Source: a virus. Taken from it: a stretch of 22,097 nt of DNA. Of this stretch, positions 657 through 22,097 are shown piece by piece. The first letter of the stretch is position 1. Each line of letters starts with the position of its first letter. The position numbers and the translations under genes were made by a program. The stretch lies in the IMG/VR virus record IMGVR_UViG_3300020174_001709, positions 1-22,097 of that record; one strand, given 5' to 3'. A model generated the notes under the pieces. It searched no databases, was not told where the DNA came from, and worked only from the letters and a program-made list of their open reading frames with translations.

Positions 657-3539
657 ATGGCATTAAGTCCTCAACTACAACAATTCAAGAGTTCAGGTGT
701 CTACCGTCTTGAATTTGACAAATCACAAACTGTCAATATCCCAGCAGAGACTATTAGGCTTGTAGTAGGTCACTCTAAGAAAGGACCATACAACACGCCA
801 GTATTTGTTGAAGATACTGAGACTTTTATCCAAATTTTCGGATCAATTGATAAGAATTTGGAAAGAAAGGGAATGTATTTTCACAGATCTGCAATTGAAA
901 CTCTATCTAGAGGTCCAATTATAGCACTAAACCTAACTTCTGCTAACGATACTGATAAATCTTACTGGGTTTCTCCAACAACAAACGGTTCCGAACAAGG
1001 AAACGGAGCAATTGATGGAGATACTCTATACAAAGATATTTTTAACAGAGATAAGTTTTGGATTCCAGAAGATGAAAAATTGCTAAATATTGCAGGAAAC
1101 ACATCTTCTCAATCTAATAACGCAATCACATTTACAAATATTAAACAAGAACCTATTACAGTAGTAGTTACTCAAGCTGGAGATACCAGAGGATTTGATG
1201 TAACTGCAAGAGAATGGTATGGTGAAGGAAATTCTCCAGAAGGAGTTGACGACCTAGACTACATCTCAGACTACATGGTAGATGTTTATGTATTTAAAGG
1301 TAGATTTGTAACTGATGAATTAAACAACGATCCAACGTTTGGAAACTACTTTAATTCAAATGGTATTATTCCTTCTCAATTCGGAGCATTTGCAAACCTA
1401 AGAGAAGTTTCTTTACTTGCTAAATACACTGGTTCTTTAATTCCTGATTTCCAAGATAATGAAGGAAGACAATACTATATTGAAACACTTATTAATTCTG
1501 AATCAAGAAGAACTGGTCTTTTTGCAGCAGTTAATGAAGATGCTCTTGATAGAATTGATTTTGTAGGTGAAGCATTCGATATTTACCAAGATTACGAACT
1601 ACTTTCACACTACCTAGTACAGCAACAGCCTCAACAATTAAATGACCCAAGAGACGGTGCATTTGAAAATATTATTGAAGTTGCTGGAGATACAATGTCT
1701 ATTCAAGTAGGCTCTGGTGATTTTGCAACAATACAGCAAAATGGATTAGTAGCTGGTAATTTCTTATATTCTGACGTTGCCGGAGAATATTCTCAAATCT
1801 TATCAGCAACACATGATGGAGCAGGACTTGCTACTGTTATTTGCGAAGAGAATATTAGCAAATCAAAATATGAAAAATTTGATGCTGAGGCAAACGATGC
1901 ATCTTACTCACAGGCTGGTTTTGCTGGAGTAAACTTAAATCTAACATATACTGGAGCATTTGCAGCTGGAGATTTAGCAGCTGGTAAATATTTAGAAAGT
2001 TCAAATGATGGTGAATTTACCGAAATCTTATCAGTAACTGATGATGGTAATGGATTGGTTACTATTGTTCCTGTTGGAAATGGCCAATTTTCTGCAGATT
2101 TAGCAGATTCACAAGCAGGTACTTTAACTTGCTACGATCAAGCAGACCAACTATTATTTGATGTATTCCAAATTGGAGTAAATGAAAGAACATTCTTCTT
2201 CCCATCTACAGTTAACACTGGGTACGGATGGACTTTTGAAAATGCAGCAACTGCTGGAGAATTTAAGTACACTTACACAGTAGCAGCAGGAGCACAAGAA
2301 GATACTTCAATTAAAGATAATATTAAAGTTGGAATGTATCTTCCAATTCAAGGAAGTGATAAACTTGCAAGAGTTCTAGAAATTAGAAGAAAGGCAGAAC
2401 TAGGAATAAATGGAGGATCTGATGACAGATACACATATACATTTATTTGCCACAGAGACGTACCTGCACAGCCTGAATATGCATTAGGATCTTTTAATGC
2501 AGCATCAGACGCGTACAGAGCATTCGTACTTGAAGGTTCTGAAAATAGTGAAAAAACTATTGGTGAATTATTAAATATGCTAATTCCTGGAAATGGAGTA
2601 TCTAATACGCTTGCGGATAAAGATGCAATAACATTTAGATATTTAGTAGATACCTTTGGATCTTACGAGCCAGCAAATGGTCTTTTAAATAAGAGACAAT
2701 TTACTATGCTTGCCAAAGAAAGACAAAACATATCTGCAATTCTAAATGCACCTATGGTAAAAGAGTTTAAAGCTTCTACCGATCCATCATTTATCGATGA
2801 GAATACTGGAGAATTTAAAACAAGTTATATTCCTACTGGAGGTAACTTAAACCTAAATCCACAGTCATTATATACATTACCTTCAATTAACGATGGTGCA
2901 AGTTATGGATTTTTCTATGGACCTGGATTAAATGTTGTTGAAAACGGAAGAACAAGAGTAATTCCACCAGCAGCATACGTATCAAATAATTATATCGATA
3001 AGTATTCTGATTCTCTTCCATGGTCAATTGTTGCTGGTCCAAGACGCGGCGTTGTTTCTGGAAGTGGAGTTCAAGGAATTGAATATGCATTTGATAAAAA
3101 TGATAGAGATAACCTAGAGCCATTCGGAATTAACCCAGTGGTATTCGAAAGAGGAGCTGGTATTGTTGTTAAAGGTAACAAAACATCGCAACAAACTATT
3201 CAATCTGCCCTTTCTTCAGCACACGTAAGAGAAGTTCTAATTTATATCGAAGACGGTCTTGCTGAAATCTTAAGAAATTACTTATTTGAGTTCAACACTG
3301 CACAGACTAGATTAGAAATTAAAACTCTTGCGGACTCATTCATGGAATCAGTTAAGAAAGATCAGGGTGTATATGACTATAGAAACATCATGGATTCTAC
3401 AAATAATACCAATGACGTTATTGATAATAACATGGGAGTTTTAGATACATATGTTGAACCGGTTAAAGGTCTTGAAATTCTAGTTTCTAGAGTAACAGTA
3501 CTAAACACTGGAGAAATTCAAACTGGTAATTTCGCATAA
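657..3539 (+). CDS. Tail sheath protein (T4 gp18-like), enlarged
   Basis: Contractile tail sheath subunit, which polymerises around the tail tube and contracts at infection. At 960 residues it is much longer than T4 gp18 (659). The N-terminal part (about 1-130) and the C-terminal part (about 640-960) resemble gp18-type proteins; the C-terminal part includes LNKRQFTMLAKERQNIS, PWSIVAGPRRGVV, VFERGAGIVVKGNKT and a long amphipathic region ending near VSRVTVLNTGEIQTGNF. The middle (about 345-500) looks like an inserted beta-rich domain built from two related units, LVAGNFLYSDVAGEYSQIL (from residue 364) and LAAGKYLESSNDGEFTEIL (from residue 440), each followed by a D-G-x-G-L strand. The ATG follows a run of A residues, as is usual in Bacteroidetes. 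The terminase lies upstream and the tail tube 33 bases downstream. Confidence 0.92.
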   Translation: MALSPQLQQFKSSGVYRLEFDKSQTVNIPAETIRLVVGHSKKGPYNTPVFVEDTETFIQIFGSIDKNLERKGMYFHRSAIETLSRGPIIALNLTSANDTDKSYWVSPTTNGSEQGNGAIDGDTLYKDIFNRDKFWIPEDEKLLNIAGNTSSQSNNAITFTNIKQEPITVVVTQAGDTRGFDVTAREWYGEGNSPEGVDDLDYISDYMVDVYVFKGRFVTDELNNDPTFGNYFNSNGIIPSQFGAFANLREVSLLAKYTGSLIPDFQDNEGRQYYIETLINSESRRTGLFAAVNEDALDRIDFVGEAFDIYQDYELLSHYLVQQQPQQLNDPRDGAFENIIEVAGDTMSIQVGSGDFATIQQNGLVAGNFLYSDVAGEYSQILSATHDGAGLATVICEENISKSKYEKFDAEANDASYSQAGFAGVNLNLTYTGAFAAGDLAAGKYLESSNDGEFTEILSVTDDGNGLVTIVPVGNGQFSADLADSQAGTLTCYDQADQLLFDVFQIGVNERTFFFPSTVNTGYGWTFENAATAGEFKYTYTVAAGAQEDTSIKDNIKVGMYLPIQGSDKLARVLEIRRKAELGINGGSDDRYTYTFICHRDVPAQPEYALGSFNAASDAYRAFVLEGSENSEKTIGELLNMLIPGNGVSNTLADKDAITFRYLVDTFGSYEPANGLLNKRQFTMLAKERQNISAILNAPMVKEFKASTDPSFIDENTGEFKTSYIPTGGNLNLNPQSLYTLPSINDGASYGFFYGPGLNVVENGRTRVIPPAAYVSNNYIDKYSDSLPWSIVAGPRRGVVSGSGVQGIEYAFDKNDRDNLEPFGINPVVFERGAGIVVKGNKTSQQTIQSALSSAHVREVLIYIEDGLAEILRNYLFEFNTAQTRLEIKTLADSFMESVKKDQGVYDYRNIMDSTNNTNDVIDNNMGVLDTYVEPVKGLEILVSRVTVLNTGEIQTGNFA

Positions 3540-3545
3540 TCAAAG

Positions 3546-3553
3546 GATATATA
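3546..3553 (+). promoter_or_regulatory. Candidate late promoter element GATATATA upstream of tail tube
   Basis: Exact GATATATA octamer 27 bases before the tube start codon, in the 33-base gap after the sheath stop. It is followed by an A-rich leader (AAATAAAGAAACAAAG). Same element as at 619 and 5660. It could allow tube expression independent of sheath; promoter function is inferred. Confidence 0.45.
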
Positions 3554-3572
3554 AAATAAAGAAACAAAGAAT

Positions 3573-4130
3573 ATGGCTTTACCACATTATAGAGAAGATC
3601 AAACAAGTAAAAAGAATAAACACTTTGAGCCAGTACAGGCGAATCTATTCGAAGTAAGTATACTTCCACCAGACGGAGTTGCAGGTTCTGATTTACTTCT
3701 ACAACATATCAATTCAATTGGAGGTTTAGAATCTCTAAACCGTGAAGTTGCTGCAGTTGAACAAAAGTACAAGTTTGCAACACGTTCTTATGCTGGTATG
3801 CCAGATGGAACAGCTCACGACATTACAGTTAACTTTTCACTTAACTTAAATGATTCTAATCAAGCATACGTTTATAAGACTTTAAGAGAATGGTATAGAA
3901 AACAATACAATCCAGAAACCGGTGAAATGGGTCTAAAAAAGGATTATGTTGGAACTATTGTTGTTGTGCAATTTAACAGATCTGGAGATATTTTTAGAAA
4001 AGTAACTCTTGAAGATTGTTTTATTACTTCGGCAGTTGGGTTTACAGGTACACTAGATTATAGTAACGCTGAACCAGAAGCATTAGAAATCACATGGAGA
4101 TGTGATACTTATGCTGAAGAATTAAATTAA
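3573..4130 (+). CDS. Tail tube protein (T4 gp19-like)
   Basis: Major inner tail tube protein, forming stacked hexamers inside the sheath. The 185-residue length is typical for the gp19 tube family (T4 gp19 is 163). The N-terminal half carries FEPVQANLFEVSILPP and the loop LNREVAAVEQKYKFATRSYAGMPD; the middle has the long beta strand HDITVNFSLNLND followed by the helix VYKTLREWYRKQYNPETG; the C-terminus ends in strands containing VTLEDCFITSAVGF and ALEITWRCDTY. This order matches T4-like tube proteins. A strong hairpin terminator follows within 12 bases. In T4 the next gene would be the portal; here the order moves on to a small RHH protein and the gp26-like gene, so the portal/capsid block must be elsewhere. 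Confidence 0.9.
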   Translation: MALPHYREDQTSKKNKHFEPVQANLFEVSILPPDGVAGSDLLLQHINSIGGLESLNREVAAVEQKYKFATRSYAGMPDGTAHDITVNFSLNLNDSNQAYVYKTLREWYRKQYNPETGEMGLKKDYVGTIVVVQFNRSGDIFRKVTLEDCFITSAVGFTGTLDYSNAEPEALEITWRCDTYAEELN

Positions 4131-4141
4131 TTACAATAAAA

Positions 4142-4174
4142 AAGGGAAGGATCCCAGGTCCTTCCCTTCTTTTT
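4142..4174 (+). terminator. Rho-independent terminator after tail tube
   Basis: A 10-bp perfect stem (AAGGGAAGGA pairing with TCCTTCCCTT) around a 7-base loop TCCCAGG, followed by C and five T. It lies 12 bases after the tube stop codon and closes the sheath-tube unit. Confidence 0.9.
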
Positions 4175-4206
4175 GCACAGAAAACATATTAAAATATCAA
4201 TATATT

Positions 4207-4434
4207 ATGTCTATAAAAAATCATAAGTTAACTAAAAAACTTCAGGTTCTTTTAACAGAAGATGAAGTCAATCAGGTTAATAGATTAATATTAATGGAAG
4301 CTGTAGAAACTGAATCTAGACCTGTTTCGGTGAGTGCTTTTATAAGAAGTCTTATACAAAAGGAATTAAGTTCTAATGTAATAGAACAGAAATCAATAAC
4401 TAAAGATCAAATTAGAAAAATTAGCAAAAAATGA
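4207..4434 (+). CDS. Small ribbon-helix-helix-like protein
   Basis: A 75-residue basic protein. The first part LTKKLQVLLTEDEVNQVNRLI looks like a beta strand followed by helix A, and RPVSVSAFIRSLIQKEL (residues 39-55) looks like the second helix of a ribbon-helix-helix DNA-binding fold, including the SVSAFIRSLI signature common in CopG/Arc-like proteins. If so it would bind DNA as a dimer. The last 20 residues are Lys/Ile rich. It sits between a terminator and the gp26-like gene, overlapping the latter by ATGA, so the two are likely co-translated. A DNA-binding protein inside a tail gene block is unusual; it may regulate this block, or be a small virion-associated protein. The fold call is by eye. 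Confidence 0.55.
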   Translation: MSIKNHKLTKKLQVLLTEDEVNQVNRLILMEAVETESRPVSVSAFIRSLIQKELSSNVIEQKSITKDQIRKISKK

Positions 4435-5414
4435 GCGAAGAAGTAAACAAGAATAGCGAGGAAATCGCTAGAGAATTAGATGCTAGAGAAATGAAAGCAT
4501 TTTCAACACCAACCGATCAAACTGAAGCAATGGAAGATGTCATTGATCGTCAGGGACTCGGTAAAGTAAACATGGACAAATTTAAGCCAGATAGTGCTGC
4601 CGCTCCTGATTTAGTTTTAGGATGGCATGAATTCCCAACGGCAAGTTTACCATCTGAAGGTAAATTTTACCCACAAGATGCTACTATCAAAATTAGAGCG
4701 GCTAAAGTTGCTGAAATTAGACATTTTTCAACAATCGATGAGACAAACTTACTCGATGTTGATGATAAACTAAATGCAATTGTTGAATCATGTATTCAAA
4801 TTTCTTCAAAAACAACTAGAATGTCATATAAAGATCTTTGTGAAGAGGATAGATTTATTTTAATTCTTTCAATTAGAGATTTAACATTCCCAGAGCCTGA
4901 AAATTCTTTAAAGGTAGATTACAGTGGAAAAAGTGGTAAGAAGTATGAGGTTGAAATTAAGAGAGATTACTTCGATTACTTCAGAGTTCCTGCAGAAGTT
5001 GAAAAATACTACGACCCAGTACTTAGAGGATATTTAGTTAAAACTAAAACTTATGGAGAAATATTCATGAGACCTCCATCAATTGGTGTAATGCAAGAGG
5101 TTACTAAGTATATTAAAGAAAGAAGAGATAACGATCAAAATATAGATCAATCTTTAATTCAAATAGCACCATATGTTGCTTCGGATTGGAGAAGATTTAA
5201 TCAAAAGAGATTATTTGAACTTGAAGTTGAAATGAATGGATGGGATAACAAAAAATATTTATTGTTATACAAGCTTGCAGAAAAAATTAAAGTAGGGATT
5301 AAACCAGAAATGAATGTTGTTATTGAGGATGAGGAGGCCTCAATTCCTATTAACTTTCGCGACGGCATCAAATCTCTTTTCATTGTTCAAGATCTCTCTG
5401 GAGAACTTCTTTAA
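4431..5414 (+). CDS. gp26-like baseplate/tail assembly protein
   Basis: A 327-residue protein resembling the T4 base-plate family (gp26 and relatives). The family-like core is FPTASLPSEGKFYP (68-81), IKIRAAKVAEIRHFS (86-100), the helical DKLNAIVESCIQ (112-123) and LCEEDRFILILSIRDLTF (136-153), which fits the LPSkG-xxY / EE / DR-xxLL-xIR pattern. The N-terminal 60 residues are charged and probably disordered. T4 gp26 itself is about 208 residues, so this version is longer at both ends. The gene lies between tube and tape measure, the position where many tailed phages encode tail assembly chaperones. The last codons read CTT CTT TAA immediately after GGAGAA, and an open +1 frame continues for 72 codons, so a minor fused product of about 399 residues is possible. 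The ATGA overlap with the RHH gene fixes the start. Confidence 0.75.
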   Translation: MSEEVNKNSEEIARELDAREMKAFSTPTDQTEAMEDVIDRQGLGKVNMDKFKPDSAAAPDLVLGWHEFPTASLPSEGKFYPQDATIKIRAAKVAEIRHFSTIDETNLLDVDDKLNAIVESCIQISSKTTRMSYKDLCEEDRFILILSIRDLTFPEPENSLKVDYSGKSGKKYEVEIKRDYFDYFRVPAEVEKYYDPVLRGYLVKTKTYGEIFMRPPSIGVMQEVTKYIKERRDNDQNIDQSLIQIAPYVASDWRRFNQKRLFELEVEMNGWDNKKYLLLYKLAEKIKVGIKPEMNVVIEDEEASIPINFRDGIKSLFIVQDLSGELL

Positions 5415-5415
5415 A
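5400..5415 (+). other. Candidate +1 programmed frameshift site (prfB-like)
   Basis: The bases read GGA GAA CTT CTT TAA A. The last sense codon CTT is followed by the stop TAA; a slip from CTT to TTT moves the ribosome to AAA ATT AGG in the +1 frame. Upstream, a purine-rich GGAGAA ends one codon before the slip codon. This has the layout of the bacterial prfB site (AGGGGG, one codon, CTT TGA). The +1 frame has no ATG or GTG between the gp26-like stop and codon ATG 5470 (only a TTG at 5461), although its protein already looks coding from the first codons. Frameshifting is inferred. Confidence 0.45.
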
Positions 5416-5631
5416 ATTAGGTTTTATATCTATAAACACCTACATATTCAGCCAAGTGAATTGGATAGAATGGATTACTATGAATACCATTATATCATTA
5501 AAGATCTTGCAGAATTTATTAAGAAGGAAAATGAAGCCCAGAAGGGTCAACAAGAACAAACAAACAGTGCAATGGGTAATATGAAAGTACCTAATATAAA
5601 GGTACCTAAGATGAACATGCCAAAAATGTAA
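5413..5631 (+). CDS. +1-frame extension of gp26-like protein, or small separate tail assembly protein
   Basis: The 72 codons in the +1 frame directly after the gp26-like stop encode KIRFYIYKHLHIQPSELD, then a helical aromatic segment MDYYEYHYIIKDLAEFIKK, a Gln/Glu-rich linker, and a C-terminal tail KVPNIKVPKMNMPKM. The frame is open back to ATG 5314 inside the gp26-like gene, but those upstream codons look like out-of-frame translation. Independent starts would be ATG 5470 (giving 53 residues) or TTG 5461; both would lose the first part. It could be the downstream half of a frameshifted chaperone pair, as in lambda G/GT, or a free small protein analogous in position to T4 gp51. A terminator hairpin begins at its stop codon. 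The tail resembles the end of the protein after the tape measure. Confidence 0.6.
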   Translation, partial: KIRFYIYKHLHIQPSELDRMDYYEYHYIIKDLAEFIKKENEAQKGQQEQTNSAMGNMKVPNIKVPKMNMPKM

Positions 5632-5659
5632 GAAAGGGGAGAGTAATCTCCCTTTTCTT
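5630..5659 (+). terminator. Terminator-like hairpin between the gp26-like unit and the tape measure gene
   Basis: A 13-bp stem (AAGAAAGGGGAGA with TCTCCCTTTTCTT, one G-T pair) around the loop GTAA. The T-rich 3' arm serves as the U-tract. It starts inside the stop codon of the small +1-frame ORF and is followed directly by a GATATATA element. Confidence 0.75.
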
Positions 5660-5667
5660 GATATATA
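5660..5667 (+). promoter_or_regulatory. Candidate late promoter element GATATATA upstream of tape measure
   Basis: Exact GATATATA octamer starting one base after a terminator hairpin and 43 bases before the proposed GTG start. A terminator followed at once by this element supports a new transcription unit. Third exact copy in the tail block. Confidence 0.5.
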
Positions 5668-5702
5668 ATACTAGAGTATATCTGCAAATATAAATTTTAC
5701 CA

Positions 5703-8531
5703 GTGGGCGGAAAAGAATTATTAACACTACTATCTCCAATGAATAAGCTATCTAAGGTAGCTGAAAAGGTGGAAGAAAAGGTAGAACTTATGTATGAACT
5801 AAATGTTCAAAATCTTAAAAATGCAGAAGTACAAGTTAGTGAACTTTCGCAGCAGACTGTTATTCTTAAAGACATTAGAGCAATTCTTAAGAATGGAGAA
5901 AAGAAATCTAAAGACTCTAAAGACGGTGATCAAAAAATGGGATCTTTTGATGGTCTTAAAAAGTTAGATAAAGGAACAATCGGTATAGCCGCGCTTGCAA
6001 TGTTAAGTATAGGTGCTGCGATTGTTGCAACTGCATTTATGTTTTCTTTAATACCTGCACTAAGTCCTATGCAGATTGTGACAGCAATTGCAATATCTGT
6101 TGCATTTATTCCAATGGCCATCGCTTTTGTTAAAATAGCAAGTATTCTGCAAGGAATGAAAGGAACGACAAAGGCAAATATTGAAGGTATACCTCTTCAA
6201 AAAACAGACGGAAGTGGAATATTCCAACTTGCAGCAGGTACATTAATTTCGATGCTTGGCGTGTCCGCTGCAATAGTTGCCACTTCATGGTTAATGAAAC
6301 TAATATTACCAGTTTCAGGTGCTCAGTTAGTGACTGCAATTGCTATTGCGATTGCATTTGTTCCAATGGCAATGGCATTTGGTAAGATTAGTAAAGTTCT
6401 GTTAAAAATGAAGGGAGTTACAAAAGCAGGTATTCAGGGAATGCCTTTCCAGAAAACAGACGGAAGTGGAATATTCCAACTTGCAGGTGGAGTATTAATG
6501 TCAATGATCGGAATGTCAGCGGCAATTACAGCTTCATCTTGGTTATTTAGACTAATATTACCAGTTTCAGGAGCTCAATTAATGACAGCAATAGGTATAT
6601 CTCTTGCATTTATTGGATTATCATACGCATATGCAAAAGTTGCGGTTGCTATTAATAGGATTAAAAGTAAAAATCCAATTAACATAGGAGGTGGAATTTC
6701 TTCAATAATGCAAACAGTGGGTACTGGAATATTAGCACTTGTTGGATTTACAGCCGCGGTTGCTATAAGTTCATGGGTAATGCAGTTAATTATGCCAGTA
6801 CATCCTATACAATTATTAACGGCACTTGCAATATCTGTAATTTTTATACCTGCAGCATATGCATATGTAAAAATATCTAAAGCTCTTAAAAATCTAAAAG
6901 GAGGTAAAACTGGAATCGGACCAGGTAATATATGGCAAGCAATGGGTGTAACATTATTATCAATGGTAGGTATTGCTGCTGCATTAACATTAAGTTCTAT
7001 GATAATGCAGTTAATTATGCCAGTTCAACCAGTCCAACTATTAACAGCTCTTGCAATCGCAGTCATAATGATCCCAGCGGCATTTGCTTTCGGTATTCTT
7101 TCAAAATCACTAAGAGGAACTAACATTAAAAATTTATTGTTTACAACCGCCGGAGTAGCTCTAATTGCTATTGGATTAGTTGCAGCAGCATGGGTATTTA
7201 CCTATTTACCATCTGCATTTAACGCACCGCCATGGGAATGGACTCTTAAAACAGGATTGGCTCTTGTTGTATTTGGAGCGGCATTTGTAGCACTAGCATA
7301 TACTGTTGGAAAGCTTCCAATAAAAGATATTTTATTTGGAGTTATTGGTGTAGCTGCAGTTGCAATCGCGATTCTCGCAACTGCATGGATATTTAGTATA
7401 TTACCAAGCACCTACTTAGCACCTGATATAGGTTGGTCATTAAGCGCAATGGTTTCAATTATCCTATTTGCAATTCCAGTAGGAATAATAGGAGCAATAA
7501 TTATGGCAACTGGTGGAACTGGTTTAGCAGCCGTCGCTCTTGGTGTAATTGGAATGATTATAATAGCAGCTGGTATATTAGCAATTGCATGGATTTTCTC
7601 ATATATTCCTGCAGGTAAGCTAGCATCTGTTGCTAAGGGATTAACCGAAGCAATTCTAGCACCTATGAATGGGATTGTTGATGTTCTTGTTAGAATAAAA
7701 AACGAATTAGGGGTTGAAACCCTAATACCTTTGGCAGTAGGAATTATTGCAATCTCAGTTTCACTTATGGCTCTTGCTGGAGCAACAGCAGGAGTAGCAG
7801 CGGGAGGATTATTATCTTCAGTTGCAAATGTTGGTAAAGCATTTTTTGATGGAGTTGCAGGATTCTTTGGAGCTGAAAAATCAAAAGGGCCGATGGATAT
7901 TCTAGAAGATCTTGTAAGAATGGGACCTCGAATAATTACACTTTCCGAAGGAATGGATTTACTTGCGGGATCATTAGGTAGAGTTATAGGATATGCAACA
8001 TTAGGAAATATTGAAAAGATTAATAAGATTGTAGATTCTGTAATTCTTACAGATATGGGAATGCAATTAAAAAATGGTTTTTCTGTAAGTGAATATTTTA
8101 CAGCGTATCCTAAATTCCTTCATGATGTTGCTAAAGGATATGATGCTATTAAAATTGCTCAATCTGGAATGAATGTTGAAATTTTAGATAAAACTACCGA
8201 AATGGTAAAAGCGCTAGCATATCTTAATGAAGTTGGAGGTGATAATGCAATGGCAAAACTTGGAGAATCTTTAGTTAAGGCAGTCGGTGAGCTATCTGAG
8301 ATGATAAAGAATTTTGGAGGAAGCGTAGATGCTCAAACAGAATCAGGTCAAAAAACAGCAGGCGCTCTTGAAGGAGTTGCAGGTAAACTAAAGAATTTAG
8401 TTGGTGTTGGTGGAAGTTCATCAAGCGGACAATCTCCAGTAGGTAATTTTGACAGCGACGAAATCGTATCGGCAATTGAAGATCTACAAAGAATTATTAA
8501 AAATCAAAAATCCGGTGGATTATTTGGATAA
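5703..8531 (+). CDS. Tape measure protein with tandem hydrophobic repeats
   Basis: A 942-residue protein in the tape measure position, the length-determining scaffold inside the tail tube that is often ejected into the host envelope. Residues 1-75 are charged and predicted coiled coil. From about 90 to 700 the protein consists of about eight diverged units of 60-85 residues, most with two strongly hydrophobic segments, for example LISMLGVSAAIVATSWLMKL and TAIAIAIAFVPMAMAF, joined by a Pro-containing turn such as ILPVSGAQL or IMPVQPVQL. The last 230 residues are more polar, with a Ser/Gly-rich stretch near 905-920 and an end rich in Lys and Gly. The start is taken as GTG 5703, as an in-frame TAA lies at 5691; ATG 5739 is an alternative. 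The stop overlaps the next ATG (TAATG). Confidence 0.8.
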   Translation: MGGKELLTLLSPMNKLSKVAEKVEEKVELMYELNVQNLKNAEVQVSELSQQTVILKDIRAILKNGEKKSKDSKDGDQKMGSFDGLKKLDKGTIGIAALAMLSIGAAIVATAFMFSLIPALSPMQIVTAIAISVAFIPMAIAFVKIASILQGMKGTTKANIEGIPLQKTDGSGIFQLAAGTLISMLGVSAAIVATSWLMKLILPVSGAQLVTAIAIAIAFVPMAMAFGKISKVLLKMKGVTKAGIQGMPFQKTDGSGIFQLAGGVLMSMIGMSAAITASSWLFRLILPVSGAQLMTAIGISLAFIGLSYAYAKVAVAINRIKSKNPINIGGGISSIMQTVGTGILALVGFTAAVAISSWVMQLIMPVHPIQLLTALAISVIFIPAAYAYVKISKALKNLKGGKTGIGPGNIWQAMGVTLLSMVGIAAALTLSSMIMQLIMPVQPVQLLTALAIAVIMIPAAFAFGILSKSLRGTNIKNLLFTTAGVALIAIGLVAAAWVFTYLPSAFNAPPWEWTLKTGLALVVFGAAFVALAYTVGKLPIKDILFGVIGVAAVAIAILATAWIFSILPSTYLAPDIGWSLSAMVSIILFAIPVGIIGAIIMATGGTGLAAVALGVIGMIIIAAGILAIAWIFSYIPAGKLASVAKGLTEAILAPMNGIVDVLVRIKNELGVETLIPLAVGIIAISVSLMALAGATAGVAAGGLLSSVANVGKAFFDGVAGFFGAEKSKGPMDILEDLVRMGPRIITLSEGMDLLAGSLGRVIGYATLGNIEKINKIVDSVILTDMGMQLKNGFSVSEYFTAYPKFLHDVAKGYDAIKIAQSGMNVEILDKTTEMVKALAYLNEVGGDNAMAKLGESLVKAVGELSEMIKNFGGSVDAQTESGQKTAGALEGVAGKLKNLVGVGGSSSSGQSPVGNFDSDEIVSAIEDLQRIIKNQKSGGLFG
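6201..6486 (+). repeat. 34-bp direct repeat within tape measure repeats 2 and 3
   Basis: The 34 bases at 6201-6234 recur exactly at 6453-6486, spaced 252 bases (84 codons), and encode KTDGSGIFQLA in both. Flanking segments are also near-identical, for example CTAATATTACCAGTTTCAGG near 6300 and 6551. This shows recent duplication of a repeat unit in the tape measure gene. Confidence 0.9.
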
Positions 8532-15218: not shown

Positions 15219-15240
15219 TTTTTTTTAAAATTTTTTAAGC

Positions 15241-15276
15241 CAGATTTTTTTATTTGAAAAAAAATGGTTATATTTG
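15241..15276 (+). promoter_or_regulatory. Promoter region with CAGATTTTTTTATTTGAAA and TATATTTG upstream of the sigma factor
   Basis: The 19-mer CAGATTTTTTTATTTGAAA (15241-15259) is identical to the one at 11601. The box TATATTTG (15269-15276) matches the Bacteroidetes TAnnTTTG consensus exactly. It lies 26 bases before the sigma factor start codon. Confidence 0.65.
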
Positions 15277-15302
15277 TATAGTTCTTTTAAACAAATAATC
15301 TT

Positions 15303-15914
15303 ATGAGCAAAAACAATCAAAAATCCTACCGTCAATTGGGTCAAGAATTCTTCAACACCCGTTCTGAAAAATCTTACAATGCACTTTATCAAAGAGTTCG
15401 ACCAGGACTTAAAAGTTACATTTGGAATATTCTTAAAGATGAAGAAGCAGTAGAAGATGTATTGGCTAATACTCTTCTTAAACTATGGACTAAAATTGAT
15501 CAGTACAAACCAGAATATCAAATTACTACATGGCTGTACCGTATTGCTTTTAACGAAAGCCTTGGATATATTCGAGAGCGTAATAAAAAATATAGTCTAG
15601 ATGGCATGAAAGATTTGGGAATTGAAGTTAGCCAAAATAAGTCTTTAAACGAGACTCTTTCTATGCTGATTGAAGAAGCCGATCAAAAATCAGAATCAGA
15701 TTTTTGGGAAGAAGAAAATGACTTGATGAATCGATATAACATGGCTCTTCAACTCATGAATAATCTCAAACCAATGTACCGCGATATTCTTGAAGATCGA
15801 CTAATTGGAAAAATGAAGTACGAAGATATTGCAGAAAAATATAATGTACCTCTTCAAACAGTTAAGAATCGAATTCGTCGCGGAAAGTCTCTAGTTGCTG
15901 GTGGCTTGAGCTAG
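15303..15914 (+). CDS. ECF-like sigma-70 family RNA polymerase sigma factor
   Basis: A 203-residue sigma factor with two recognisable regions. Region 2 (about 25-95) contains the core-binding and -10 recognition segments DEEAVEDVLANTLLKLW and TTWLYRIAFNESLGYIRERN. Region 4 (about 150-200) contains the helix-turn-helix KYEDIAEKYNVPLQTVKNRI followed by RRGKSLV. A charged linker of about 55 residues joins them and no region 3 is seen, as in ECF sigma factors. It would redirect host RNA polymerase to phage promoters; the GATATATA-type elements in the tail block are candidates, by inference. The gene starts a three-gene unit: one base separates it from the glycosyltransferase. Confidence 0.9.
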   Translation: MSKNNQKSYRQLGQEFFNTRSEKSYNALYQRVRPGLKSYIWNILKDEEAVEDVLANTLLKLWTKIDQYKPEYQITTWLYRIAFNESLGYIRERNKKYSLDGMKDLGIEVSQNKSLNETLSMLIEEADQKSESDFWEEENDLMNRYNMALQLMNNLKPMYRDILEDRLIGKMKYEDIAEKYNVPLQTVKNRIRRGKSLVAGGLS

Positions 15915-15915
15915 A

Positions 15916-16917: not shown

Positions 16918-17984
16918 AAAAGAACAAGAAATTCCTTTATGATTATTTAAATGCATATGCACCCGTAGCACAAGAAGCCGAAGGTCAATCTGTATGGACT
17001 AATTATATTATGCCTTATTGCGATGAGGTTCAACAAGATGCATATGGAACTGCATATGGTATTCTCTATAAATCAGACGGCAGGGTAGATCCAAAACGAG
17101 TTGTGATTGAGGCACACTGTGACGAGATTGCATGGATTATTACACATATCGAAGAAAGTGGAATGATTAGAGTAAAAAGACACGGTGGATCTGATAATAT
17201 GATAGCACCTTCGAAGACTGTAATGATACATACACACGATGGTAAAAAGGTTAGAGGTCTTTTTGGATGGCCGGCAATTCATACAAGAGATAAATATACA
17301 TCAATGGGATATGACCAGCATGAATTATGGGTAGATACTGGCCTTAAAGATAAAGATGCAGTAGTTAATGCTGGTGTTGAGGTTGGTAACCTAATAACAT
17401 TCGATACTCAATTGGAAGAGATTGGAGACTATTATGTTGGAAGATCATTAGATAATAAGATTGGAGGTTACATTATAGCGGAGGCACTTAGAAAGATCTC
17501 TGAAGATAGTATTAAATTGCCTTATGACCTTTACATCGTAAATTCAGTGCAGGAAGAAGTTGGGCTTCATGGAGCTAAAAAGATTGCTAAGCTTTTAAAA
17601 GCTGATCTTGCGCTTGTGCATGATGTTTGCCATAATACTAATACCCCTAAAATTGATAAGGCCAAAGATGGTGACAATAAAGGAGGAGAAGGTCCTTGTC
17701 TAGAATATACGGCACAAAACCATCGTAAAATTAATCAAATGCTAAGATCTATTGCTAAATCTAAAAATATTCCAATTCAATTAACAGTTGGTTCGATGGG
17801 TAATGACACAATGGCATTTTTTATGGAAAATACGCCAACTGCAATTTTAGCAACCCCTCTTAAATACATGCATACCACTGTAGAGATGGCACATAAAGAA
17901 GACGTTAAATCTTGTATTAAATTATTTGTAGAATTTTTAAAGAATTTAACGCCATCTCAAATAGATGAAATTAATGCACGATAA
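16914..17984 (+). CDS. M42 family metallopeptidase (glutamyl aminopeptidase-like)
   Basis: A 356-residue cytoplasmic aminopeptidase of the M42/M28 clan with all expected zinc site motifs: AHCDEI (H68), RSLDNKIGG (D180), QEEVG (catalytic E214 and ligand E215), HDV (D237) and MHTTVE (H320). M42 enzymes usually form large tetrahedral complexes that trim peptides; whether this one does so cannot be seen. The length is typical for the family (about 340-360). The start is taken as ATG 16914, overlapping the glycosyltransferase stop by ATGA; an upstream ATG at 16893 would add seven residues. A host-type metabolic peptidase is unusual in a phage; it may supply amino acids from host peptides, or process a virion or host protein. 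Confidence 0.9.
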   Translation: MKKNKKFLYDYLNAYAPVAQEAEGQSVWTNYIMPYCDEVQQDAYGTAYGILYKSDGRVDPKRVVIEAHCDEIAWIITHIEESGMIRVKRHGGSDNMIAPSKTVMIHTHDGKKVRGLFGWPAIHTRDKYTSMGYDQHELWVDTGLKDKDAVVNAGVEVGNLITFDTQLEEIGDYYVGRSLDNKIGGYIIAEALRKISEDSIKLPYDLYIVNSVQEEVGLHGAKKIAKLLKADLALVHDVCHNTNTPKIDKAKDGDNKGGEGPCLEYTAQNHRKINQMLRSIAKSKNIPIQLTVGSMGNDTMAFFMENTPTAILATPLKYMHTTVEMAHKEDVKSCIKLFVEFLKNLTPSQIDEINAR

Positions 17985-18036
17985 ATATTGAAACTTTTTG
18001 ATAGTTTTTACTATTTAATATGTTCTTTATTTATTA

Positions 18037-18119
18037 GGAGAGGTGGCAGAGTGGTAATGCAGCAGCCTGCTAAGCTGTGATCGATCTTCGATCCCTGGGT
18101 TCGAGTCCCAGTCTCTCCG
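18037..18119 (+). tRNA. tRNA-Ser (GCU)
   Basis: Acceptor GGAGAGG pairs with TCTCTCC (last pair G-T), anticodon loop CTGCTAA gives GCU, a long variable arm with the hairpin GATCGA/TCGATC typical of tRNA-Ser, T stem CTGGG/CCCAG, discriminator G. It lies upstream of the array promoter, so it probably belongs to a separate unit. Confidence 0.95.
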
Positions 18120-18133
18120 CGAAAAAAACATTG

Positions 18134-18175
18134 CTAAAAGTTTTCAGATTAAAGAATTTTGATTATATTAGCTAT
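18134..18175 (+). promoter_or_regulatory. Promoter of the main tRNA array
   Basis: CTAAAAGTTTT (18134-18144) is followed by TTATATTAGCTAT (18163-18175), with the TATATTAG box 30 bases after the start of the upstream element. Same two parts as at 11944 and 11628. It lies 33 bases upstream of tRNA-Lys. Confidence 0.65.
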
Positions 18176-18207
18176 GTAGTTGTAGTTCTTTGAAATGAAG
18201 GTAAATT

Positions 18208-18280
18208 GATCTCTTAGCTCAGTTGGTAGAGCAATACACTTTTAATGTATGGGTCCAGGGTTCGAGCCCCTGAGGGATCA
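18208..18280 (+). tRNA. tRNA-Lys (UUU)
   Basis: Acceptor GATCTCT pairs with AGGGATC (one T-G pair), anticodon stem ATACA/TGTAT with loop CTTTTAA, T stem CAGGG/CCCTG with loop TTCGAGC, discriminator A. First tRNA after the array promoter. Confidence 0.95.
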
Positions 18281-18297
18281 CACATGCCATGCAAGCA

Positions 18298-18379
18298 GGG
18301 AGTATCGCATAGTGGCTATTGCAGCTGACTGTAAATCAGCCGTCGTAAGACATCGGTGGTTCGAGTCCATCTACTCCCA
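18298..18379 (+). tRNA. tRNA-Tyr (GUA)
   Basis: Perfect acceptor GGGAGTA/TACTCCC, anticodon stem GCTGA/TCAGC with loop CTGTAAA giving GUA, a long type II variable region, T stem GGTGG/CCATC (one G-T), discriminator A. Confidence 0.95.
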
Positions 18380-18385
18380 CAATAT

Positions 18386-18459
18386 TCCTCCTTAGCTCAG
18401 TTGGTTAGAGCATCTGACTGTTAATCAGAGGGTCCTTGGTTCGAGCCCAAGAGGAGGAG
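18386..18459 (+). tRNA. tRNA-Asn (GUU)
   Basis: Perfect acceptor TCCTCCT/AGGAGGA, anticodon stem TCTGA/TCAGA with loop CTGTTAA, T stem CTTGG/CCAAG with loop TTCGAGC, discriminator G. Only 6 bases separate it from tRNA-Tyr. Confidence 0.95.
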
Positions 18460-18469
18460 CAAATAATAT

Positions 18470-18543
18470 GGTGGTTATAGCTCAGTTGGTAGAGCGCTAG
18501 ATTGTGGTTCTAGTTGCCGTGGGTTCGATCCCCACTAATCACC
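18470..18543 (+). tRNA. tRNA-His (GUG)
   Basis: Acceptor GTGGTTA pairs with TAATCAC (one G-T), anticodon stem CTAGA/TCTAG with loop TTGTGGT, T stem GTGGG/CCCAC. The extra G-1 (18470) opposite C73 (18543), the hallmark of tRNA-His, is encoded. Confidence 0.95.
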
Positions 18544-18544
18544 C

Positions 18545-18652
18545 AAAGGAAGAGGTAGTGAAGCTGTTAGGTTGGCACCAAGAAAAAGGGTTTATAGTAA
18601 GGCCAGCACACCAGAAACCCCGAAAGACCCGAAGCCCCTTCCTTTTTATTTT
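18545..18652 (+). ncRNA. Structured non-tRNA RNA within the tRNA array, possible pseudoknot
   Basis: The roughly 175 bases between tRNA-His and tRNA-Met contain a compact GC-richer element. An enclosing 8-bp stem pairs AAAGGAAG (18545-18552) with CTTCCTTT (18638-18645), followed by TTATTTTT. Inside, GGTaGTG (18554-18560) can pair with CACACC (18607-18612), TTGGC (18572-18576) with GCCAG (18602-18606), and GGGTTT (18588-18593), in the loop of the latter, with AAACCC (18615-18620) outside it, making a pseudoknot. A C-rich single strand with CCGAAAG and CCGAAG follows. No T-loop or anticodon is present, so it is not a tRNA. It may be a stable phage RNA like T4 RNAs C and D, a ribozyme, or a regulatory RNA. 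Pairing was found by eye. Confidence 0.5.
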
Positions 18653-18720
18653 TGAAACTCTAACCTTAATCCCTATATAAATCATGTGGAACGGAGAATA
18701 CGAAGATTAAAATAATTTAA

Positions 18721-18794
18721 GCGCTTTTAGCTCAGTTGGTCAGAGCAACTGACTCATAATCAGTAGGTCGTAGGTTCGAGCCCTACAAGGCGCA
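18721..18794 (+). tRNA. tRNA with CAU anticodon (elongator Met, or Ile2)
   Basis: Acceptor GCGCTTT/AAGGCGC, anticodon stem ACTGA/TCAGT with loop CTCATAA, T stem GTAGG/CCTAC, discriminator A. The G-C first pair and the lack of three G-C pairs in the anticodon stem argue against initiator tRNA. Met and lysidine-modified Ile cannot be separated here. Confidence 0.9.
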
Positions 18795-18800
18795 CAACAT

Positions 18801-18877
18801 CGTCCAGTATCCCCTCAAGCTTATACCTTGTAGAAAGGGTAATTGGTTACATACGAGTTCGAGTCTCGTCTGGACGA
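18801..18877 (+). tRNA. D-arm-less tRNA-like element, possible anticodon UAU
   Basis: The ends are perfect: acceptor CGTCCAG/CTGGACG, T stem ACGAG/CTCGT with canonical loop TTCGAGT, discriminator A, total 77 bases. The middle is abnormal. No D arm follows the acceptor (only TATCCCC); a candidate anticodon arm CAAG-CTTATAC-CTTG (18816-18830) would give UAU (Ile, AUA). After AGAAAGG a hairpin GTAA-TTGG-TTAC (18839-18850) lies where the variable loop should be; its GG could substitute for the D-loop guanines. It may be an aberrant functional tRNA, a tRNA mimic, or a decaying gene, although the intact stems argue against simple decay. Confidence 0.55.
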
Positions 18878-18891
18878 CCGTGGATATTATT

Positions 18892-18962
18892 TGTCCTGTG
18901 GTGTAATGGCAGCACTAGTGGTTTTGGTCCACTCAGCCTGGGTTCGAGTCCTAGCGGGACAA
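18892..18962 (+). tRNA. tRNA-Gln (UUG)
   Basis: Acceptor TGTCCTG pairs with CGGGACA (one T-G), anticodon stem AGTGG/CCACT with loop TTTTGGT giving UUG, T stem CTGGG/CCTAG (one G-T), discriminator A. Last RNA gene before the terminator. Confidence 0.93.
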
Positions 18963-18963
18963 C

Positions 18964-19006: not shown

Positions 19007-19288
19007 TTATTGTGCAATTTCAGAAGGATCTGAAATTACAGTTATTATAAACTCACCTTTATTTCTAGGATCTTCTGTAAAAAAGAAACTAATAGTTTCA
19101 TATTGGAATACCAATTTTACTTTTTCTCCAGGAGCTGCTTTAACTACCCATTCAGTTCTCCATGGATTTGCTGAATAATCAAGAATTTCAATATCTTCAT
19201 TAAAATACCTTGGAGATCTTACTTGAGTATACGTTGCACACCCAAATAAAAGAATAGATCCTAATAAGAGACTCAATATTTTTTTCAT
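19007..19288 (-). CDS. Small lipoprotein, function unknown
   Basis: A 93-residue protein with a signal peptide MKKILSLLLGSILLFGC and lipobox LFGC, with C17 as the lipidated residue, so it is expected to be exported and anchored in a membrane. The mature part (about 76 residues) is beta-rich, with VKLVFQYETISFFF and GEFIITVIS, and no known motif. It follows the T9SS-domain gene by 15 bases on the same strand, with an A-rich leader, so the two are probably co-transcribed. In a phage it could act as an envelope protein blocking superinfection, as small lipoproteins of other phages do; that is inference from type and context. Confidence 0.8.
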   Translation of the reverse strand: MKKILSLLLGSILLFGCATYTQVRSPRYFNEDIEILDYSANPWRTEWVVKAAPGEKVKLVFQYETISFFFTEDPRNKGEFIITVISDPSEIAQ

Positions 19289-19303: not shown

Positions 19304-22097
19304 TTATCTAAACACGTTAATGTGTCCGCTCGTATTAAAGGTGTTTGCTGGAGAATATCCAACACCTCTTATGATATAAACATAAACACCGTCGGAAACA
19401 TAATAGTTTCCTCCGTTCATGTTTCCTATCCAAACCTCTCCGGGTGTAGTTGAATACCAGACTAACTGTCCCCATCTGTTGTATATAAATACTTCCCATT
19501 CTAACCAGCACTCTGGATCTGTTACCACCGTCCATCCATCATTTAAACCATCATTATTTGGTGTAAATGTATTTGGAGCAAAGTAATTACCATCTACGCA
19601 GGTATCATAAACACAACTACCGTCATCGATTACTGCTTGATAATTATAGTTTATTGCCATAGGATCAGTGCACCCTGCCAAATATACGACATATTCGCAG
19701 CTACCATCTTCTATATTTGCTTCTGGGTTATAATTAAGAGCACTTGGATCCGTGCAACCATATACATCATATAGACAAGAACCATTGTCCACGTTAGCTT
19801 CAGGATCATAGTTGTTTGCTTCAGGATCCGTGCAACCATATACATCATATAGACAAGAACCATTGTCCACGTTAGCTTCAGGATCATAGTTGTTTGCTTC
19901 AGGATCCGTGCAACCATAATTACATAAGTCATCAGCATTTCCTGCATAATTAATATTTACCTCTATTTCAGTCCATCCTCCTCCAAGATTGTTAATATTA
20001 TTAACTTGAATGTATACTCCTCCTAAACCATCTGCATATACTGGAGGAAATTGAAGATATAATACTTCACCTGGTAGAAGAGAACCTTCCCAGCATATTT
20101 CTTCATCATAAAGAGAACCATAAATGTTATATGTTCCACAAAAACTAGTAATTTCTAAGGTTCCAGTGTTCTCATAAATTATTTCAGGTATGTAATAACC
20201 ACCTTCTATAGAATCACATTCAAATATAGGATTGATGTCTATGTACGATAATTCTAAAATATCATACTCACAGCTGCCATCATCTTCCGTAGCTTCTGGA
20301 TTATAATTAATAGCATCAGCATCAGTACATCCTAAAATTTCACATTCTATTCCAGGATTTCCAACAATAAAGACTGACATATTATTAGAAATATTACTAT
20401 CCTCTCCAAAATCATTCCAAGAATCAGAACTTTCTCCATTTATATGAAGAACATGTACACTAACCGCTCCATATGAATAAATTGGTATTGGCCATTCTAT
20501 AGAAATTTCACCAAATGAATTTATAGTATAGCCCATTCCATTAAAACATATAGTATCATTCGTCTGTCCTAATACTTGAATCTTAACGCAATATTCATTA
20601 ATTGCAGGATTAGTTAGGTTAGAGAGGTGTATTGTTGGTATCCAATACGGATTTGATCCATCACATCCTTCAATAATAGTTAAAGAATCTAACGATAAAT
20701 CTGAAGAATATTCGCAACTACCGTCATCTTCGTTTGCAAATTGATTATAATTATTAGCATTTGGGTCAGTACATCCTAACACAGAGCATGGATTCCCATA
20801 AACTATATTTTGATATACTGTAGTATTGTTATACACAAAATCCGGATTTTCATCTTCTGCAAAATAAATATTTACCGTAAATTCAGAAATACTTTCTGGT
20901 ATCGAAACAGTTCCTACAGTTTGACCTTCTCCTGGAGGTATCCATAAAGCACCAATCAAATTACCATTAAAGCATTCATCATATCCTATTTCTGGAATTT
21001 CAATGCAATATGACCATAATGTATCGGTTGCATTACCGAGAGCAGGAAGTAAGTTTAAAATACTTACATTCCAAATATTTACAGGATTTCCAGAATTACA
21101 TGCCGTTTGATTGAAGCCAAAATTTGGAACTGCGTCTGGTGATGTAAAATCACATCCAAAAATACTAATGTACCAATCCCAATATGAATCATCATTATGG
21201 TATGCGTTACATATTTCAAGCCCCACTTCGTAAGGACTATCACAGTTTACACATGAATTATCGCTTACAGTAGCATTGGAGTTATAATTACATGCCGTAG
21301 GATCTGTACATCCATAGATAGGGGCATCCTCGCATGTTCCATCATCAAAATCAGCATCTGGATTATAGTTTAAAGCATCTGGATCTGTACATCCTGGATA
21401 AAGAGGGGCTGGAGAATCACATACATTAATTGAATTCATATCAATATTAATATCAGGATAAAATTGAGTTTGGTCAGCACATACACCACAAGTCGCAGCC
21501 CAGCCACCGTCTGATATTTCTAATGTTTTTGAATAGTTTATTTGCCAAATAACTATTTCTAGACATTCTTCTAATGTTTCATCTTCTAATAATTCTTGAA
21601 AACAGTCATCATATTGAGAGTTATCAGAAAACAGGTTGTAATTTATTGTATCTCCGCTATAAAACTCTGCAAATCCTATTGGATTGTCCCATGTCCAACC
21701 TTGATGATATTCAGCAGCAGTACATCCCCAATTATAATCCCAACCTGGAACATGTATTGCTAACTGAATCATATTTACATAATCGGTTTGCGAAGATAAA
21801 CCGGTATTAATTGAACTGCCACAGTTAAAGTGACTAACTATTTCTATACTTACGTCATATGATATTGGATCGAATCCTATAAAGTCAATATCACAATCAC
21901 ATAACGCGTCTGAATTAACATCAGGGCAATCAGAATTAAATGGTCCATAATATGGACTACCATCTGAATTATGGACCCAAGATCCGTCAGCAAGTCCACA
22001 ACTGCCTAATCTTAAATTAACTTGAGACCATGTTCCATCAAATCCATTTGGATTAGCTGAAAAATATGGCCATTCTAATGCCTCTACCCAATATTCA
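19304..22097 (-). CDS. Large Cys-rich repeat protein with C-terminal T9SS type B sorting domain, 5' end outside window
   Basis: The frame is open to the window edge: upstream of the ATG at 21772 another 108 codons continue without a stop, so at least 930 residues are encoded and the N-terminus, including any signal peptide, is not visible. Eight copies of a linker of the form GCTDPxAxNYNPxAxxDDGSC (coding around 19609-19918, 20267-20333, 20710-20785 and 21243-21395) separate beta-sandwich-like domains, two of which look CARDB-like. The Asp/Asn-rich linkers may bind calcium and form disulphides. The last about 95 residues (19307-19600) form a gliding-motility-associated C-terminal domain: FAPNTFTPNNDGLNDGW, FIYNRWGQLVWYS, then GVYVYIIRG and a final INVFR. 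In Bacteroidetes this domain directs export through T9SS. Secreted surface adhesin is the best reading; a phage structural fibre is the alternative. Confidence 0.85.
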   Translation of the reverse strand, partial: EYWVEALEWPYFSANPNGFDGTWSQVNLRLGSCGLADGSWVHNSDGSPYYGPFNSDCPDVNSDALCDCDIDFIGFDPISYDVSIEIVSHFNCGSSINTGLSSQTDYVNMIQLAIHVPGWDYNWGCTAAEYHQGWTWDNPIGFAEFYSGDTINYNLFSDNSQYDDCFQELLEDETLEECLEIVIWQINYSKTLEISDGGWAATCGVCADQTQFYPDINIDMNSINVCDSPAPLYPGCTDPDALNYNPDADFDDGTCEDAPIYGCTDPTACNYNSNATVSDNSCVNCDSPYEVGLEICNAYHNDDSYWDWYISIFGCDFTSPDAVPNFGFNQTACNSGNPVNIWNVSILNLLPALGNATDTLWSYCIEIPEIGYDECFNGNLIGALWIPPGEGQTVGTVSIPESISEFTVNIYFAEDENPDFVYNNTTVYQNIVYGNPCSVLGCTDPNANNYNQFANEDDGSCEYSSDLSLDSLTIIEGCDGSNPYWIPTIHLSNLTNPAINEYCVKIQVLGQTNDTICFNGMGYTINSFGEISIEWPIPIYSYGAVSVHVLHINGESSDSWNDFGEDSNISNNMSVFIVGNPGIECEILGCTDADAINYNPEATEDDGSCEYDILELSYIDINPIFECDSIEGGYYIPEIIYENTGTLEITSFCGTYNIYGSLYDEEICWEGSLLPGEVLYLQFPPVYADGLGGVYIQVNNINNLGGGWTEIEVNINYAGNADDLCNYGCTDPEANNYDPEANVDNGSCLYDVYGCTDPEANNYDPEANVDNGSCLYDVYGCTDPSALNYNPEANIEDGSCEYVVYLAGCTDPMAINYNYQAVIDDGSCVYDTCVDGNYFAPNTFTPNNDGLNDGWTVVTDPECWLEWEVFIYNRWGQLVWYSTTPGEVWIGNMNGGNYYVSDGVYVYIIRGVGYSPANTFNTSGHINVFR
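19746..19901 (-). repeat. Exact 78-bp tandem duplication in the T9SS-domain gene
   Basis: Bases 19746-19823 and 19824-19901 are identical, and the first 17 bases of the unit continue at 19902. Each unit encodes 26 residues: one GCTDPEANNYDPEANVDNGSC linker plus LYDVY. Perfect identity, while the other linkers have diverged, means a recent duplication. Confidence 0.95.

Follow-up and report, generated by a model that had tools for sequence, protein, structure and literature searches.

The window analyzed here, which is the complete IMG/VR virus record IMGVR_UViG_3300020174_001709 of 22,097 bases, ends at its right side in a gene for a large protein with a C-terminal sorting domain of the type IX secretion system (T9SS). 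We refer to this gene as the cargo gene. The visible part of its product begins with a short segment, after which come a domain of about 168 residues, a series of repeats with intervening stretches and, last, the sorting domain. The cargo gene, its parts and the small gene directly downstream of it are as follows:

19304-22096, minus strand: T9SS type B cargo gene, 930 residues visible, 5' end beyond the contig
19364..19579, minus strand: CHU_C / T9SS type B sorting domain, residues 840-911 by Pfam (PF13585, TIGR04131)
19595..21394, minus strand: region with eight GCTDxxAxNYxxxA repeats (at residues 235, 262, 441, 589, 728, 754, 780 and 808)
21392..21895, minus strand: N-terminal 'CD...WQIN' domain, residues 68-235, delineated from an alignment of 18 sequences
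19007..19288, minus strand: small putative lipoprotein of 93 residues, with LFGC at residues 14-17

An initial examination of the letters and open frames (the sequence-only reading) had recognized a type B sorting domain on a large repeat protein from the motifs FTPNNDGLND, YNRWGQLVW, GVYVYII and a final R. All of these lie in frame at the C-terminus of the cargo frame, with the final R at 19307, and profile searches bear the assignment out, with scores of 54.2 bits for PF13585 (CHU_C; cut-off 27) and 37.4 bits for TIGR04131 (cut-off 35). As both scores exceed the curated cut-offs of two separate libraries, the domain is not a chance match. The description as a large repeat protein likewise holds, with at least 930 residues and the eight repeats. 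The window record has no match to PF18962, the type A domain, and the sorting domain is of type B. A profile of the domain (A3) also matches the C-terminus of Aureispira GhpA (E 3e-9).

Relatives and phylogeny of the cargo gene

A query with the full 930 residues drew in no relative from the viral_contigs set, and relatives were recovered with short pieces and alignments. Scanning with an alignment of viral sorting domains returned 335 related stretches, the best 80 of which were examined. The closest full-length relatives (L254/L255) are 1132 residues long and show 55% identity across all 930 window residues; they have 123 extra residues ahead of the part seen in the window, starting with a hydrophobic signal-peptide-like segment. 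Further full-length relatives (L256-L260 and L263; 998 residues, 54% identity) also have signal-peptide-like starts, and such genes were found in viral contigs of up to 270 kb. A set of 50 distinct complete relatives was assembled from 80 loci, 6 of which gave no open frame by our expression and 9 of which were cut at the 5' end, with L269 (148 residues, probably cut) removed by hand and identical copies collapsed. By a heuristic of our own, 49 of these 50 begin with a signal-peptide-like segment; among the other genes at the same loci that are 150 residues or longer, 59 of 376 do. The one exception, L253, has no visible signal peptide, and a C-terminal R is present in all 50. Relatives of the gene, which the sequence-only reading proposed to seek in other phage genomes, thus begin in a Sec-type fashion, are flanked by phage genes and end in this sorting domain.

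To place the sorting domain, 135 viral and 80 cellular loci were collected, of which 89 and 73 domains, respectively, passed a regular expression, and removal of near copies (at least 85% identity) left 73 viral and 70 cellular sequences. The cellular sequences were taken from the best 80 of 551 loci, and therefore represent the closest part of the cellular sample. In the resulting tree the window falls within a clade of 43 viral and no cellular members with support of 100/95, in an alignment that has few columns for its number of rows and with a bootstrap that had not fully settled (0.979). Among these best 80 of 551 cellular and best 80 of 335 viral stretches, the six best cellular domains are 35-42% identical to that of the window, and viral ones reach 70-75%. 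The viral label requires 13 changes over the whole tree, at least 4 of them forced by well-supported branches, which suggests that type B domains have been passed between hosts and phages several times.

In the genomes searched, the N-terminal domain is almost restricted to viral records. Its alignment (A4), to which 11 viral records of a set of 50 with type B domains had supplied rows, matches 29 of that set; excluding these contributors, it matches 18 of 39. These 50 records (G053-G102), mostly long contigs, were chosen from 126 loci (L110-L156 and L237-L315). On the cellular side, 299 genomes from the order to which a Flavobacteriales genome belongs yielded the domain once and 395 genomes from the phylum not at all, with a query that does give matches in the viral and order-level sets. 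The sole cellular match (G137:C47:24050-24436; L317) is located where a 25-kb chromosomal contig ends, just past a tRNA-Ser gene, and might mark the border of an integrated element. An AlphaFold2 model of the domain (pLDDT 79, pTM 0.78) predicts a beta sandwich with no clear relative of known function. Searches of the PDB gave no convincing match, the best E values being 0.11 for the fold (Foldseek) and 0.4 for the sequence, and VIA Z values of up to 5.2 may reflect merely a common arrangement. A cohesin identity was considered, and none was seen among the 50 matches listed. The top viral structural match was A0A7S9STS8 of Virus NIOZ-UU157 (E 1.8e-9, 27% identity), which is known here as a database entry only and bears the name 'Gliding motility-associated C-terminal domain-containing protein'; this was followed by the unnamed A0A516LPX6 (E 1.3e-8).

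The genomic context of the relatives points in the same direction. In a 212-kb viral contig (G017) the same lipoprotein and cargo gene pair has an endolysin gene on one side and, on the other, a tRNA array with genes that the window phage also carries. In the 270-kb G061 the cargo gene, at about 138-141 kb, has a terminase-type match on one side (121 kb) and an amidase gene on the other (about 158 kb), and the same contig has a sheath match at 58 kb and genes for thymidylate synthase and dihydrofolate reductase (DHFR) near 205 kb. Across the 50 type B viral records, phrog_2, which we take to be the terminase large subunit, was matched in 23 and phrog_23 (tail sheath) in 15, with at least one of the two in 26; the corresponding rates in cellular controls were 11 of 14 for phrog_2 and 2 of 14 for phrog_23. 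Taken on its all-viral sorting-domain clade, its nearly virus-confined N-terminal domain and its phage gene context, the cargo gene is a phage gene.

Five protein queries against 50,697 GenBank phage records gave sorting-domain matches only in LR756502.1, LR745206.1 and the unverified MT839536.1; the first of these, an uncultured huge-phage record of 642 kb, holds three type B domains. The GCTDP repeats alone matched cyanophage-type records in the same collection. The two cargo proteins tested have no family in PHROGs.

Phage-encoded shuttles and cargo-less proteins

Work on F. johnsoniae describes the type B domain as both necessary and sufficient for the export and placement of fused proteins, which also needs a PorP/SprF shuttle that is recognized specifically (PMC12618676). 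That account adds that type B substrates have five conserved motifs, A-E, within the last 100 residues, and that the shuttle is often genetically linked, with orphan substrates that can share one shuttle. In P. gingivalis, PorP binds PG1035, a type B protein from which the domain is not removed (PMC9143113). The sequence-only reading had named PorP/SprF proteins as the usual partners of such cargo, and this point proved apt: PorP/SprF genes are present in 5 of the 50 type B viral records (G059, G060, G061, G063 and G066), and exactly these five hold the full-length relatives closest to the cargo gene. The detection procedure gave 61 matches in five of five Flavobacteriales genomes used as a control. 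The phage shuttle genes are:

G061:C1:147458-148447 (= L257:15101-16090)
L254:14111-15103
L259:14527-15537
L263:14160-15152
L256

The three proteins scored against TIGR03519 (cut-off 90.55) reach 179.6 (L257), 180.3 (L254) and 177.3 bits (L259), and PF11751 (cut-off 22.3) gives 154.9 for L257 and 156.2 for L254. The two phage shuttles tested have no PHROG. A scan of viral_contigs with the alignment of phage shuttles returned the five contigs and no others. In a tree with 12 of the 61 host shuttles, four phage shuttles form one clade with 100/100 support. We infer that phage cargo and phage shuttle form a pair; some phages seem to bring both, and the remainder would need a shuttle of the host. 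As the window and its sister contig (G003, see below) are fragments, a shuttle gene may possibly lie elsewhere in the genome of the window phage. In L325 (8500-9009) and L326 (11010-11567) a small lipoprotein-like gene adjoins the shuttle gene; the one tested has no Pfam or PHROG family.

We also noted, in several phages, proteins of 107-116 residues that consist of a signal-peptide-like start and a type B domain with no cargo between them. Their loci are:

L090:9499-9822
L092:9355-9687
L097:9509-9859
L111, L115 and L117-L120

TIGR04131 scores above the cut-off were obtained for L111 (49.4 bits), L118 (43.0) and L097 (42.1). The cargo-less proteins fall in more than one lineage of the sorting-domain tree, and in a relative of the window phage (G006) a gene of this kind separates two genes that adjoin each other in the window (gap 10180-10294). 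Type B frames of fewer than 130 residues make up 4 of 13 over the cut-off in phages as against 1 of 150 in hosts, among the matches listed (211 in all), with the hosts being five genomes and four of the records (G001, G002, W01 and W02) having been chosen by similarity (Fisher p 1e-4, or 1e-3 with G005 and G044 counted once). The scan that yielded most of the short proteins used short proteins as the query. L135 encodes a 93-residue cargo-less version with a lipoprotein-like start. Open frames of 133 residues with a type A domain (PF18962) occur in five phage records (L103-L107), and are perhaps the type A counterpart of the cargo-less proteins. A PF13585 match in G022, below the cut-off, overlaps a better type A match and was assigned to type A.

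The source contig and the neighbors of the cargo gene

The left 18 kb of the window are of phage origin, with a terminase-like fragment, sheath and tube genes, weakly baseplate-like and tape-measure-like genes, a sigma-factor-like gene, a family-11 glycosyltransferase and an M42 aminopeptidase. The principal features on this side are:

657..8531, plus strand: phage tail module (sheath, tube, baseplate-like and tape-measure-like genes)
657-3539: tail sheath (PHROG tail sheath, E 1e-120)
3573-4130: tail tube (tail-tube PHROGs, E 1e-8)
4431-5414: baseplate-like gene (T4_baseplate match, below cut-off only)
5703-8531: tape-measure-like gene, 942 residues, by place and composition, with no family match
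9498-9572: single further tRNA
18037..18963, plus strand: array of seven tRNAs (Ser, Lys, Tyr, Asn, His, Met, Gln)

Thus, of the sheath, tube, tape measure and tRNA array that the sequence-only reading had placed on this contig, the sheath and tube are supported by PHROG matches and the tRNAs, eight in all, are present, and the tape measure is assigned by its place and composition only. The label 'T4-like' is fair in a broad sense only: the best-scoring named relatives of the sheath come from phages of Tenacibaculum, Flavobacterium and Prevotella, along with uncultured huge phages, and Sphingomonas phage PAU ranks lower. These sheath relatives suggest that the host of the window phage is probably a member of the Bacteroidota, the group that possesses the T9SS. 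The tRNA array separates the left-side phage genes from the lipoprotein and cargo cassette. A 60-kb sister contig (G003) is 99.96% identical across window positions 1-18226 and stops within the tRNA-Lys gene (18208-18281), and the assembly is therefore fragile in the array.

Some other features of this contig deserve mention. The tape-measure-like gene has an internal direct repeat (6078-6614; about 286 bases, offset 252, about 75% identical). The sigma-factor-like gene is followed by the glycosyltransferase gene (15303-16917), and the former, with some of the genes preceding it, has a similar order in other phages of the group. The M42 aminopeptidase gene (16893-17984) has relatives at 66 loci in viral contigs of up to 597 kb, and is a conserved phage peptidase.

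The small putative lipoprotein gene downstream of the cargo gene has homologs directly 3' of type B cargo genes in L089 (50% identity) and L110 (49%). The lipoprotein signal was judged by eye, and reads LFGC in the window and L089 and LAGC in L110. The window protein has no Pfam or NCBIfam family and only a weak match to a PHROG of unknown function (E 0.007), and its AlphaFold2 model is poor (pLDDT 57). Small phage lipoproteins are used in superinfection exclusion, as exemplified by Llp of phage T5; the likeness to this small outer-membrane-type lipoprotein is one of idea only.

A survey of neighbors in 61 distinct cases, ten of them with a contig edge beside the cargo gene, found an M43-type metalloprotease gene adjoining the cargo gene on the same strand in 18, a small secreted protein gene in 5 and the lipoprotein in 3. 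Four M43-like proteins score from 49.9 to 64.5 bits (cut-off 23), and a fifth, from G061, scores 54.0 bits; the G061 protease has the sequence HEMGHYCGLFH and is encoded about 28 kb from the cargo gene. The HExxHxxGxxH motif is present in 4 of 6 M43-like frames (L136, L299, L089 and L340) and not in L264 and L110. Dockerin- or EF-hand-like stretches, below cut-offs, are seen in three proteases (L136, L299 and L264). The protease gene of L089 is split across two frames. In L110 an M43 protease, the N-terminal domain and the sorting domain are fused in one protein, with the lipoprotein gene following it. The protease neighbors fit receptor removal or another function outside the cell. A gene resembling poly(A) polymerase or CCA-adding enzymes (PF01743) was also observed near T9SS cargo genes (L092:6576-7730, L089:5440-6579 and L097:9870-11054), and two of these three phages encode cargo-less proteins as well.

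Proposed export, its possible role and the alternatives

We consider it likely that the gene is of phage origin and that its product is exported through the T9SS. The sequence-only reading had suggested that a phage might send an adhesin-like protein of its own through the host system, for instance to coat the cell or block receptors; the view of a phage gene bearing a host T9SS address stands on the viral clade, the starts of the relatives and the flanking phage genes, and from these we infer export and surface display. Under this model, the owner of the gene would be a contractile-tailed phage of Bacteroidota, and the cargo, made in the infected cell, would cross the inner membrane by the Sec pathway and be captured by the host T9SS through its type B domain. 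A PorP/SprF outer-membrane shuttle, phage-made in some cases and host-made in others, would then receive the cargo and hold it on the cell surface, with the repeats and the beta-sandwich domain projecting from the cell. The remodeled surface might block adsorption of further phages to the infected cell, and in some phages a secreted M43 protease and small lipoproteins may assist. This anti-adsorption role is favored because gld and spr mutations accompany phage resistance in F. columnare (PMC9233685), and because the authors of a study on a Cryophage mention superinfection exclusion as one possibility for its type A cargo (PMC7468147). Nevertheless, superinfection exclusion as the role of the cargo protein is speculative, and we would place it somewhat short of an even chance. 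In a broader scheme, phages of Bacteroidota would pass a whole secretome through the T9SS of their hosts. It would comprise large type B surface proteins with a domain of viral making, in some phages an own PorP/SprF shuttle that gives a private exit from the host translocon, M43 protease and lipoproteins, and in several lineages cargo-less proteins that jam or occupy shuttles, so as to replace the T9SS-dependent surface and exclude other phages. This scheme appears unlikely at present.

The strongest alternative contests the role and not the export: the exported protein could serve as an adhesin or enzyme carrier outside the cell, acting in proteolysis with the M43 enzyme, escape from a matrix, aggregation or attack on competitors. 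We regard this as possible but less than probable. The adjoining M43 genes in 18 of the 61 cases, the L110 fusion, the more distant M43 gene of G061, the protease motif in most of the M43-like frames and the dockerin- or EF-hand-like stretches speak for it; on the other hand, no protease gene adjoins the cargo gene in 43 of the 61 cases (the ten at a contig edge being among these). That the cargo protein is instead a virion component, a fiber or decoration with borrowed domains, is very unlikely. Tail genes do lie on the same contig, baseplate genes are found near relatives in L283 and L308, and GCTDP repeats occur in a gene of Synechococcus phage S-CAM3 annotated as 'virion structural protein' (L320, 4569-6119). 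However, the prevalence of signal-peptide-like starts in the relatives, the position of the sorting domain at the very C-terminus, the strand of the cargo gene opposite to the tail genes, the occurrence of relatives beside replication or nucleotide genes as well (L264 and L299) and the sharing of contigs with a T9SS shuttle disfavor the virion fiber that the sequence-only reading had offered as an alternative. Finally, it is highly improbable that host DNA makes up the right end of the window, or that a chimera arose at the tRNA array, as the fragile assembly there and the 29-54 type B domains carried by each of five Flavobacteriales genomes might suggest. The crossing into host DNA also envisaged earlier is largely excluded, given that both the phylogeny and the N-terminal domain of the part beyond the tRNAs are viral, and that independent viral contigs show no bacterial genes beyond a junction, with G017 having the same lipoprotein and cargo pair after its tRNA array and between phage genes. 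A chimera of two phages is possible and would leave the interpretation as a phage-borne T9SS cargo unchanged.

Several observations weigh against the reading of the gene as an exported phage cargo, beside the annotation of the cyanophage repeat gene. The 5' end of the cargo gene is missing, with no start in the window, and the ATG at 21772 is internal as relatives align upstream of it; this is most likely due only to the end of the contig, because the L254/L255 relative carries the additional N-terminal residues. More distant viral type B proteins can end in non-basic residues (Y in L140 and L148, H in L117 and L118, N in L120), and the lipoprotein was found in three phages only (the window, L089 and L110). 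Type B domains are few in phages sampled by the M42 gene, a sample of 50 of 71 loci made up of 45 of the 66 found with M42 and of L002, L003 and L070-L072: 7 of the 45 M42-selected records have one over the cut-off and 9 others a type A domain (PF18962), giving 16 of 45 with either type, near-identical records included. With regard to the shuttle, no PorP/SprF gene was detected in the other 45 of the 50 type B viral records or among a further 50, few of them with type B domains, which included the window, the sister contig and M42-selected phages, many of these records being fragments; where present in G059 and G061 it is not adjacent to the cargo gene, being 6-7 kb away on the opposite strand. 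Use of a host shuttle is hence an assumption for most of these phages, and one that has to contend with the specific shuttle recognition described in PMC12618676. PADLOC, a host-defense library and so a source of weak evidence here, matched no defense-system family.

Phage-encoded T9SS cargo as a kind is already known (PMC7468147, PMC6949934). The Cryophage carries type A sorting domains on an endoglucanase, a GH39 protein and a PA14 protein, which, like the proteins described here, are thought to use the host system (PMC7468147). That case concerns type A domains of one phage, whereas the domains here are of type B and form a clade that extends across viruses. They come with an N-terminal domain almost restricted to viruses, a lipoprotein partner, cargo-less versions and, in some phages, a PorP/SprF shuttle. 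Gut phages have open reading frames with T9SS sorting domains near BACON-domain frames, one of them fused to BACON (PMC6949934, cluster 2); the likeness lies in T9SS domains on phage frames, and in the available portion of that paper they are mentioned without a mechanism and with the type unstated. The cellular SprB-SprF and PG1035-PorP pairs resemble the phage genes in the C-terminal CHU_C domain and in a shuttle family that is over the NCBIfam cut-off in phage records. Unlike them, the phage cargo and phage shuttles each fall into separate clades in the sampled sequences, and the phage shuttle lies 6-7 kb off on the other strand. Among the matches listed in open-licence PubMed Central there was no report of type B phage cargo; none was met there for phage shuttles or cargo-less versions either, with no search having been aimed at phage PorP/SprF. 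What is new here is a broad virus-specific type B family, with a phage shuttle in some of its members.

The prior case for the use of host outer-membrane secretion by a phage was the type A cargo of one phage. If the reading presented here is true, a virus-specific type B clade, with some members bringing their own shuttle, would make this a general phage strategy. The family would also offer a marker for Bacteroidota phages. Its cargo-shuttle pairs and very small type B proteins, both of natural origin, would further help in studying how shuttles select what they carry, a current question in the field. Should the scheme of a phage secretome also hold, it would represent a new kind of superinfection exclusion, by hijack of secretion.

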